A DNA stretch of 52,578 nt. Origin: Armatimonadota bacterium (GTDB lineage: Bacteria > Sysuimicrobiota > Sysuimicrobiia > Sysuimicrobiales > Sysuimicrobiaceae). Location: the NCBI GenBank assembly GCA_025060455.1, contig JANXBY010000041.1:1-52578 (forward strand), given 5' to 3'. The translations under genes and the position numbers were made by a program. Within the stretch, counting starts at the first letter, position 1; each line of letters opens with the position of its first letter. A model generated the notes under the pieces. It ran no database searches. It worked only from the letters and a program-made list of their open reading frames with translations, and was not told the origin of the DNA. Positions 15,054-17,222 of the stretch are shown piece after piece.

Positions 15054-16037
15054 TCAGAACTGCGCGAGAAATCGCACGTCGTTCTCCCAGAACAGCCGGA
15101 TGTCGTCGATGCCGTAGCGCACCATGGCGGGTCGGTCCACGCCGCACCCGAAGGCGAACGCGGTGTACCGCTCCGGGTCGATACCCGCCATCTCCAGCAC
15201 CCGCGGGTGGAACATGCCGCACCCTCCGATCTCCAGCCACCGGCCCCGGAACGAGACCGCGATCTCCGCGCTGGGTTCCGTGAAGGGGAAGTAGGAGGGC
15301 TGGAAGCGGACCCGGGTGTCGGGCCCCCACAGCTGCCGCGCGAACTCCGCCAGCACCCCTTTCAGGTCCGAGAACCGCACTCCTTCCCCCACCATGAAGC
15401 CGTCCACCTGGTGGAACACCGGCATGTGGGTGGCGTCCACCACGTCACGACGGTAGCACCGGCCCACGGTCACCACCCGCATGGGAGGCTGCCGGCGGGG
15501 CATCACCCGCACGTCCACCGCGGTGCACTGAGTCCGCAGCAGGTGCTCGTCGTCCAGGTAGAAGGAGTCCTGGGCGTCGCGGGCGGGGTGGTCCTCCGGG
15601 ATGTTCAGGCGCCGGAAGTTGAACTCCTCCGTCTCCAGCTCGGGGCCGTCCACCACCTCAAACCCCATGGACCGGAAGATGTCCCGGATCTCCTCGATCA
15701 TGCGTCCCAGGACGTGCTCGCGACCCACCGGCGCCCGCCGGCCCGGCAGGGTGACGTCTACCGCCTCCGCCCGCAGGCGCTCTTCCCGCTCCCGCGCCCG
15801 CAGCTGGCGGGTGCGCTCCTCCAGCCGCCCCTCCAGCCACTCCTTCAGCTGGTTCAGCACCGCGCCGGCCGCCGCGCGCTGCGCGGGCGGCAGCTGCGGC
15901 AGGCCGCGCAGCACCTGGGTGAGCTCGCCTTTGCGGCCCAGGTACCTGCGCCGGACCGCCTCCAGCTCGTCGGTGGTGGAGGCGGACTCCAGCTCTTGTG
16001 CGGCGCGCCGGCGCAGGGCCTCAACCCGCTCCTCCAT
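15054..16037 (-). CDS. pheS: Phenylalanyl-tRNA synthetase alpha subunit
   Basis: The 327-residue catalytic subunit has an N-terminal coiled-coil tRNA-contacting arm (to about residue 90) and the class II core: motif 1 region MGFEVVDGPELETEEFNF, motif 2 in VVTVGRCYRRDVVDATHMP with FHQVDGFMVGE, and motif 3 AFAFGCGVDRPAMVRYG. It ends IRLFWENDVRFLAQF, typical of the family. ATG 16037 is preferred over a GTG at 16043 because GGAGGG ends right before that GTG but sits at ideal spacing for the ATG. Expression is likely controlled by the T-box immediately upstream. It is followed directly by pheT. Confidence 0.98.
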   Translation of the reverse strand: MEERVEALRRRAAQELESASTTDELEAVRRRYLGRKGELTQVLRGLPQLPPAQRAAAGAVLNQLKEWLEGRLEERTRQLRAREREERLRAEAVDVTLPGRRAPVGREHVLGRMIEEIRDIFRSMGFEVVDGPELETEEFNFRRLNIPEDHPARDAQDSFYLDDEHLLRTQCTAVDVRVMPRRQPPMRVVTVGRCYRRDVVDATHMPVFHQVDGFMVGEGVRFSDLKGVLAEFARQLWGPDTRVRFQPSYFPFTEPSAEIAVSFRGRWLEIGGCGMFHPRVLEMAGIDPERYTAFAFGCGVDRPAMVRYGIDDIRLFWENDVRFLAQF

Positions 16038-16043
16038 GGGCAC

Positions 16044-16310
16044 CCCTCCACACGCGGGCGCGCCACCGCCCGTGTGGCGGAGGCGCGCCGCCGCGGTACC
16101 TCCTTGCGTCCGGGAGCTGGCTCCCGGCCCTCTGGCCGCTGTCCCGGGCGGACCCGGCGGGCATTACCCGCGGCCTGCCACCAGGCCACGCTCCTCCCGC
16201 GGCTCGGGAGCGAACGCACACGGCCCGGCGCCGGGGACTTCCACCCGCGTCCCCTCGCTGTGGGCCGGAGGCCGAGGCGCTCTCCGTCCTCGCCTCAGTT
16301 CCAGATGGAC
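16044..16310 (-). promoter_or_regulatory. Phenylalanine T-box riboswitch, apparently translational type
   Basis: The leader before pheS carries the T-box landmarks in order on the minus strand: a Stem I base with GAGGACGGAGAG, an AGCGA bulge motif (16255-16259) topped by a GGGGAC/GTCCCC distal stem, the specifier codon TTC (16212-16214, Phe) followed by GCTCCCGAGCC, two more hairpins, and the T-box AAGGAGGTACCGCGG (16092-16106). CCTCC at 16079-16083 can pair with AAGGAGG of the T-box (antisequestrator) or, as CCTCC...CACACG, with CGTGTGGAGG covering the pheS ribosome site (16045-16054). No U-run follows, so control of translation initiation is inferred. The usual UGGN is AGGU here. Confidence 0.85.
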
Positions 16311-16414
16311 CGGGCGTACGCGTGGGCCCGGCGCAGCCTCCGGTACACCACGTACGCCCACGCCGCACCCGTCCTCTGGAACACGTTCCAGAAGAACTCC
16401 GACGTCCAGAACAT
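16295..16414 (-). CDS. yqzL: YqzL-like small protein
   Basis: A 39-residue frame from ATG 16414 contains EFFWNVFQRTGAAWAYVVYR, which matches the core of the YqzL-like family (FxWxxFxxTGxxxAYLxYK) known from Bacillus, where the gene neighbours recO. Its function is unknown. The match and the strongly non-random aromatic composition support a real gene, although no clear Shine-Dalgarno precedes the ATG. It lies between trmH and the T-box, and its last codons touch the beginning of the T-box Stem I. This location differs from Bacillus. The short length (family about 45-50 residues) leaves some doubt about the ends. Confidence 0.7.
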   Translation of the reverse strand: MFWTSEFFWNVFQRTGAAWAYVVYRRLRRAHAYARSIWN

Positions 16415-16466
16415 GACGTCCGCTGCGCCCAGCTGGCGCTTTGCCCGCAGTATACCAGCGGCCCGA

Positions 16467-17222
16467 CTAGGCCGTCCACGCACGCCGGGCTTCGTACATC
16501 AGCACCGCGGCCGCTGCGGTGACGTTCAGGGACTCCACCCCTGGAGCCAGGGGGACCCGAACGGTGCGGGCACCCGGCCACGGGTGGCGGGCACCGGCGG
16601 CCTCGCTGCCGAACACCAGCGCCACGGGAGGCCGGTAGTCCGCCTGGCGGTAGTCGACCTCGCCCCGCGGGTCTGCCACCCACACCCGCGCGGCCGCGCA
16701 AACCTCCTCCGGGGTGGCACAAGCCAGGGGCAGCGCCAGGCACGAGCCCGCGCTGCCCCGCAGGGCCCGGGGGTGGAAGGGATCCGCGGTGTTGGGTAGC
16801 ACCACGACCGCGTCGAACCCCGCCGCGTGCGCGGTCCGCACCAGCGCCCCCAGGTTTCCGGGTTCCTGGAGGCCGTCGGCCACCGCAAGCCATCGCCAGC
16901 GCAACCGCCCCAGCGGGACCACCTCCGGCAGGCGCACCACCGCGGCCACCGGCTGAGGGGTCTTCACGTCCGAGATGGCCTCCACCACCCTGTGGGACAC
17001 TTGGCGTACGGGTACGCCCAGCACGCCCGCACGCTGCGCCAGCTCGTCCACCTCTGGCGACGCGCCCGGGACCACCAGCAGCTCCTCCACCCTCCCCATC
17101 CGGAGGGCGAAATCCGCCAGCCGGACCCCGGTCACCACCGCGCGACCTGCGCGCGCCCGCTCGCGCCGGTCCAGAAGAGCCCGGAGTGCGCGGACGTGCG
17201 GGTTGCGGGGGCTGGTGATCAC
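16467..17222 (-). CDS. TrmH/SpoU-family RNA 2'-O-methyltransferase
   Basis: The 251-residue protein has an N-terminal RNA-binding substrate domain (ITSPRNPHVRALRALLDRRE) and a C-terminal SPOUT trefoil-knot domain with the three motifs: LAVADGLQEPGNLGALVRTA, VALVFGSEAAGA and VRVPLAPGVESLNVTAAAAVL. It methylates a 2'-hydroxyl in rRNA or tRNA using SAM; the exact site is not predictable. It follows rplT by 24 bases, the position of ysgA-like genes in Bacillota, and precedes yqzL and pheS. GTG start at 17222 has no good ribosome site, suggesting read-through coupling from rplT. Confidence 0.92.
   Translation of the reverse strand: MITSPRNPHVRALRALLDRRERARAGRAVVTGVRLADFALRMGRVEELLVVPGASPEVDELAQRAGVLGVPVRQVSHRVVEAISDVKTPQPVAAVVRLPEVVPLGRLRWRWLAVADGLQEPGNLGALVRTAHAAGFDAVVVLPNTADPFHPRALRGSAGSCLALPLACATPEEVCAAARVWVADPRGEVDYRQADYRPPVALVFGSEAAGARHPWPGARTVRVPLAPGVESLNVTAAAAVLMYEARRAWTA

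Follow-up and report, generated by a model that had tools for sequence, protein, structure and literature searches.

A phenylalanine T-box leader upstream of pheS that has probably lost its tRNA-dependent switch in one bacterial species

Beyond Firmicutes and Actinobacteria, T-boxes have been found in Chloroflexi, Deinococcus, and Proteobacteria (PMC2494555). Translational T-boxes were first predicted for actinobacterial ileS, on the basis of an aligned Shine-Dalgarno (SD)-sequestering hairpin and anti-sequestor (PMC1262725), and the class II ileS T-boxes of Actinobacteria are covered by Sherwood 2015, as far as cited in PMC7583486. Terminators lacking a U-tail have been both claimed and disputed in mycobacteria (PMC12288462), a review that also cites Czyz et al. 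2014 for the need of a U-tract.

Here, we describe a pheS leader in a window of 52,578 nt (the whole stretch of DNA that was analysed), for which an earlier note had proposed a Phe T-box acting on translation through an AGGU bulge. We favour a different reading, with a probability of about 0.72, in which the leader is homologous to a Phe T-box that attenuates transcription and, in this species, has lost the switch operated by tRNA; the species is represented by one genome.

The pheS leader and its homologues

The closest named relatives of the window are MAGs labelled Armatimonadota/Armatimonadetes, along with Bacterium HR32 and ANGP1. Its minus strand carries pheS, present in one copy in the genome, and also genes that we take, from names read off the translations, to be infC, rplT, an RNA methyltransferase gene, and pheT. 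The pheS start is most likely the ATG at 16037, behind GGAGGGG, and the ORF list also permits a GTG at 16043. The leader (16300-16038, minus strand) has a T-box layout, spans the 260 nt between a small ORF and pheS, and comprises, in order, AGCGA, the specifier TTC, CCCGCCGGGTCCGCCCGGGAC, a Stem III hairpin, GCAAGG-AGGTACC-GCGG, and a GC hairpin adjoining the SD. The promoter lies upstream of both the small ORF and the leader, and its TATACT is found in siblings too. The features, all on the minus strand, are as follows:

16449..16478, minus: sigma-70-like promoter TGGACG-18-TATACT (consensus scan, 9/12 matches, TG before the -10)
16295..16414, minus: conserved 39-aa small ORF, weakly YqzL-like, with homologues at the same place in relatives (sequence)
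16198..16296, minus: T-box Stem I, conserved in the genus, normal relative rate
16259-16255, minus: AGCGA bulge within Stem I
16214-16212, minus: specifier TTC within Stem I, kept in 4/4 species of the genus
16110..16197, minus: Stem II, Stem IIA/B-like CCCGCCGGGTCCGCCCGGGAC, and Stem III hairpin CCGGGAGCCAGCTCCCGG (sequence, folding)
16105-16091, minus: T-box core AAGGAGGTACCGCGG, with AGGT at 16101-16098
16102..16107, minus: 5' strand GCAAGG of antiterminator helix A1, partner strand lost
16095..16101, minus: acceptor-binding bulge AGGTACC (TGGTACC in siblings)
16088..16094, minus: 5' strand GCGGCGG of antiterminator helix A2 (GCGGAGG in siblings)
16057..16089, minus: attenuator hairpin GGCGCGCC-T-CCGCC-ACACG-GGCGG-T-GGCGCGCC, -29.8 kcal/mol, no U-tail
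16083-16079, minus: CCTCC (sequence)
16045..16083, minus: predicted SD-sequestering hairpin CCTCCGC-C-AC-A-CGGGCG / CGCCCG-C-GT-GTGGAGG, -27.5 kcal/mol, in the window only
16043..16049, minus: SD GGAGGGG of pheS (sequence; kept in siblings)
15054..16037, minus: pheS, phenylalanyl-tRNA synthetase alpha subunit (Pfam PF01409, E=4.6e-97)
15044-12978, minus: pheT, downstream of pheS

The small ORF matches Pfam PF14006 (YqzL) at E=0.0019, below gathering. Homologues of 39-44 aa, sharing the motif W-x-E/D-x-x-W-x-x-F-x-x-TG-x-x-WAY-x-x-YR, lie just 5' of the pheS T-box across the order (L009-L012, L015, L017, L018, L052, and L054), and the small ORFs of the order also resemble YqzL below gathering (PF14006, E 4e-5 to 6e-3). 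In genus g2, the small ORF is gone together with the pheS T-box.

The elements on which the earlier note had based a Phe T-box-type leader (specifier TTC, AGCGA, and T-box core) are each present where it had located them, on the minus strand. Upstream of pheS, three congeneric species (G001, G002, and G003) have the same leader, which aligns end to end with that of the window, and T-box cores precede pheS across most of the order, so this is a real T-box-type leader and not a chance arrangement. The covariance check that the note had called for, a genome search with RF00230, left the window leader unmatched even at E<=10 and recovered seven T-boxes elsewhere in that genome. The three sibling pheS leaders were matched at 27.0, 22.7, and 18.0 bits, below the gathering score of 93, indicating that RF00230 reaches this lineage weakly and that the window leader drops out for reasons of its own. 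We set aside Rfam miRNA/sRNA matches within the window, none of which attained its gathering score. No species of the genus has the loop E motif (AGUA / GAAG in L012) in the specifier loop of its pheS Stem I (window 16296-16198 and L009-L011), and this includes those whose antiterminator is intact.

Changes in the bulge and antiterminator

The siblings read GCAAGG-UGGUACC-GCGGAGG-CGCG-CCUCCGC-CCUUGU (one additional C in G003), which gives an antiterminator with a 6-bp A1 (GCAAGG/CCUUGU), a 7-nt bulge containing the canonical UGGU, and a 7-bp A2. The window, in contrast, reads GCAAGG-AGGUACC-GCGGCGG-CGCG-CCUCCGC-CACACG. The bulge U has become A, a C.U mismatch interrupts A2, and A1 has no 3' strand left, since the loop of the attenuator hairpin has changed from CUUGU to ACACG (CTTGT and ACACG in the DNA). 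The AGGU bulge of the earlier note is present, as AGGT at 16101-16098. Of the related genomes, to which the note had pointed as a check, the three congeneric ones carry the canonical UGGU. The other T-box cores that we inspected, which come from pheS leaders across the order and from this genome, all have UGG at the bulge. Their A1 is mostly 4-6 bp long, whereas the corresponding run in the window is 3 bp and due to chance. The canonical string AGGTGGTACCRCGG occurs 97 times, in 42/43 genomes of the order; its A-variant occurs three times in the 43 genomes, with a T-box core only in the window. Two candidates for a second AGGU T-box were discarded: a match in the same genome (G000:C73:38420, L073) lies antisense inside a coding sequence, and a single match in G021 (L071) falls at a site without T-box features.

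A single tRNA-Phe(GAA) gene was found, with A73 followed by CCA. UGGU is thus the matching bulge, and AGGU leaves an A:A opposition at A76, so that the mismatch with the terminal A of ACCA anticipated by the earlier note would indeed arise. The same ACCA end rules out an altered tRNA-Phe that offsets the AGGU.

Folding energies are rough for an RNA this GC-rich (37 or 65 C). For the pre-terminator RNA of G001 and G002, the lowest-energy structure is the intact antiterminator. This does not hold for the window, where the forced antiterminator lies ~18 kcal/mol above the hairpin fold, compared with 4-10 in the siblings. An antiterminator covariance model, for which the 21 training sequences were pheS T-boxes of other genera and the pairing was backed by covariation and a slide control, gave 53.3, 53.3, and 47.0 bits for the siblings and 28.1-50.3 bits for the seven other T-boxes of this genome. 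The window leader scored 15.5 bits, next to chance matches elsewhere in the window at 15.4, 14.6, and 14.4; at this background level, the antiterminator is not recognisable in this species.

In a relative-rate comparison with G002 as outgroup, the T-box and hairpin block had eight window-only changes versus none in either sister. The corresponding counts were 14 versus 12 (or 8) in the sister for Stems I-III, 60 versus 43 (or 51) for pheS, and 38 versus 37 for the upstream genes, and the excess change is confined to the expression platform. A count of broken pairs in Stem I, limited by alignment in variable loops, was used loosely. Reverse-complemented, CUUGU becomes ACAAG, which differs from ACACG at one base, and at least four of five matches to the inverted loop would arise by chance with a probability of 0.016; the five loop changes may accordingly represent one event, an inversion of the loop of the 14-bp palindrome plus one substitution. 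When the loop change is counted as one event, the excess becomes ~4:0 (p=0.125), which is not significant alone and weighs against the decay reading.

An assembly or sequencing error in the GC-rich palindrome, with a canonical T-box in the organism itself, would explain why the changed block coincides with a 14-bp palindrome of very high GC and why its loop comes close to an inverted copy of the sibling loop, which a chimeric inversion would produce. The loop inversion is inexact, however, the flanks are normal, and three more separate substitutions (bulge, A2, and hairpin) would be needed as errors, which leaves this explanation unlikely.

The U-tail and the Shine-Dalgarno region

As the earlier note had observed, no U-run precedes the pheS start: none lies between the hairpin (16089-16057) and the SD (16049-16043), and the tail of the hairpin has two U in 9 nt. 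The note had named a U-run terminator in related genomes as evidence against its proposal, and most other pheS T-boxes of the order do carry, behind the hairpin, a tail that is U-rich to a varying degree; in g3 (L012), the nearest other genus with a pheS T-box, this tail reads UUGUCGUUG. The genus of the window has CGCGUGUGG or UUGACGUGU at this place and lacks the U-tail throughout. Since most pheS T-boxes of the order combine hairpin and U-rich tail, the ancestral pheS leader was probably a transcription attenuator, with a tail that eroded in this genus; of the terminator hairpin and U-run that define a transcriptional T-box, the window retains the hairpin only. The sibling pheS leaders (L009, L010, and L011), together with L007 and L082, are otherwise intact T-boxes with attenuator hairpins lacking a U-run, and these hairpins end within a few bases of the SD. 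Most other T-boxes in these genomes retain some U-tail.

According to the earlier note, CCUCC could pair either with the T-box GGAGG or with the SD. Both pairings are physically possible, but the former appears only when the RNA is folded without the 3' strand of the hairpin, is unpopulated in longer RNA and in the full-length ensemble, and would bury the acceptor-binding bulge. At -19.5, the geometry proposed there for the SD pairing (CCACACG:CGUGUGG plus CCU:AGG) falls short of the best fold predicted by the program, CCUCCGC-C-AC-A-CGGGCG / CGCCCG-C-GU-GUGGAGG, which has -27.5 kcal/mol, near the -29.8 of the other hairpin; the CCUCC-SD pairing as such stands. This sequestrator is the main predicted fold of transcripts that stop 15 nt into pheS and weakens as they lengthen; those that extend 40-60 nt into the gene mostly adopt the other hairpin.

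Conservation of the CCUCC-ribosome site pairing, on which the note had also rested its case, is not seen: the pairing is 0 in 4/4 relatives folded (G001, G002, G003, and g3), so that a sequestrator common to the genus was rejected. Forcing the antiterminator raised predicted SD accessibility from 0.50 to 0.54 in G001, from 0.26 to 0.38 in G003, and from 0.68 to 0.97 in G002; with such small shifts in G001 and G003 and a larger one in G002, the intact siblings show no consistent dedicated sequestrator. In the window, the sequestrator needs the loop change plus an A to U change in the hairpin; combined, the two lift the CCUCC-SD pairing predicted for short transcripts from 0 to 0.5-0.96. When the ancestral block was mutated at random, 8-24% of trials attained that level as well. 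As this is no more than random mutation yields, an adaptive origin was rejected; the sequestrator is real as a predicted fold and carries no evidence of selection.

The gain in predicted pairing is what would speak for a rewired leader, in which translation is governed by a new SD-sequestering hairpin that is blind to the tRNA 3' end and acts either constitutively or via Stem I binding, temperature, or another signal. The frequency of equivalent random mutants, the dominance of the other hairpin 40-60 nt into pheS, and the lack of phylogenetic support make such rewiring very unlikely. Its more specific form, an acceptor-blind T-box derivative in which Stem I still binds tRNA-Phe and the newly made SD-sequestering hairpin controls pheS, we regard as highly improbable. 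Hardly more promising is a weakly functional transcription attenuator, in which Stem I tRNA binding and two G-C bulge pairs would suffice: the decoding stem, the GG of the bulge, and the hairpin (-29.8 kcal/mol) are kept, but A1 is missing, the energetic cost of the constrained antiterminator far exceeds that in the siblings (~18 against 4-10 kcal/mol), and no U-tail exists for termination. The working translational T-box of the earlier note (CCUCC sequesters the SD when the tRNA is charged and gives way to an antisequestrator stabilised by uncharged tRNA, with AGGU tolerated) is the least credible, since, despite the missing U-run in the genus, the nearly isoenergetic sequestrator, and an intact Stem I, it conflicts with UGGU in relatives, U-rich tails in the order, the sequestrator's absence from every relative folded, and the loss of A1, a point absent from that note, which leaves no tRNA-stabilised fold exclusive with the sequestrator, CCUCC:GGAGG being unpopulated and burying the bulge.

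A probably decayed switch among known T-boxes

We therefore return to loss of the switch as the preferred reading. Ancestrally, uncharged tRNA-Phe would have read UUC in Stem I and paired its ACCA end with the UGGU bulge, holding A1 (GCAAGG/CCUUGU) and A2 (GCGGAGG/CCUCCGC) and thereby preventing the downstream GC hairpin. In the window, the U to A change in the bulge, the missing 3' strand of A1, and the A2 mismatch, all visible in the sequence, would amount to loss of this switch: acceptor-end sensing and antitermination would no longer work, pheST expression would be unresponsive to tRNA-Phe charging, and the hairpin without its U-tail would let through enough expression for an essential operon. 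pheS is essential and, being single copy here, makes it unlikely that the hairpin is an efficient block. Loss of T-box control is tolerated in the family, since pheS of the sister genus g2 (L013 and L014) has neither T-box nor small ORF and immediately follows a TATACT box of its own. The g2 genomes keep other T-box cores.

Two observations temper this reading. Stems I-III are still intact, implying that the loss is recent or that part of the RNA is still used, and the same changes also create the SD-sequestering fold. Judged by the features that characterise T-boxes, the Stem I specifier codon fits the downstream gene (UUC for pheS), the bulge is AGGU instead of a UGGN complementary to the tRNA acceptor end, and helices A1 and A2 are not formed around it; because of the latter two, the leader is better called a decayed T-box derivative than a member in working order.

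This T-box has apparently been caught soon after switch loss, with its decoding stem intact, and the intact, tail-less, and fully deleted states among its relatives make the order of riboswitch dismantling traceable. A departure from an invariant motif (UGGN) in one genome, or a fold predicted for one sequence, is likelier to reflect decay than a new mechanism. The tail-less, otherwise intact sibling T-boxes offer a better subject for how such leaders work in a GC-rich genome.

Among known systems, the window leader is like the class I (transcriptional) T-boxes of the RF00230 pheS type in its position before pheS, its Stem I with UUC and AGCGA, its Stem III, its GGUACCGCGG core, and its GC hairpin overlapping the antiterminator. 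Unlike them, it has AGGU for UGGU, no A1, and no U-tail, and it is recognised neither by RF00230 nor by the phylum-specific antiterminator model. The absence of a U-run and a hairpin able to mask the SD recall the class II (translational) ileS T-boxes of Actinobacteria, which, however, have UGGN and an anti-sequestor and sequestor aligned across species (PMC1262725), whereas the sequestering fold here is found in one species only, with no anti-sequestor. The sibling pheS T-boxes (L009, L010, and L011) share the same leader throughout and the same missing U-tail, and differ from the window in their canonical UGGU, 6-bp A1, 7-bp A2, and lack of predicted SD sequestration. The long GC hairpin without a U-tract at pheS in 4/4 species of the genus also resembles the non-canonical tail-less terminators reported in mycobacteria (PMC12288462). 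Overall, the window leader shares descent with T-boxes and resembles the translational kind in one predicted fold only.
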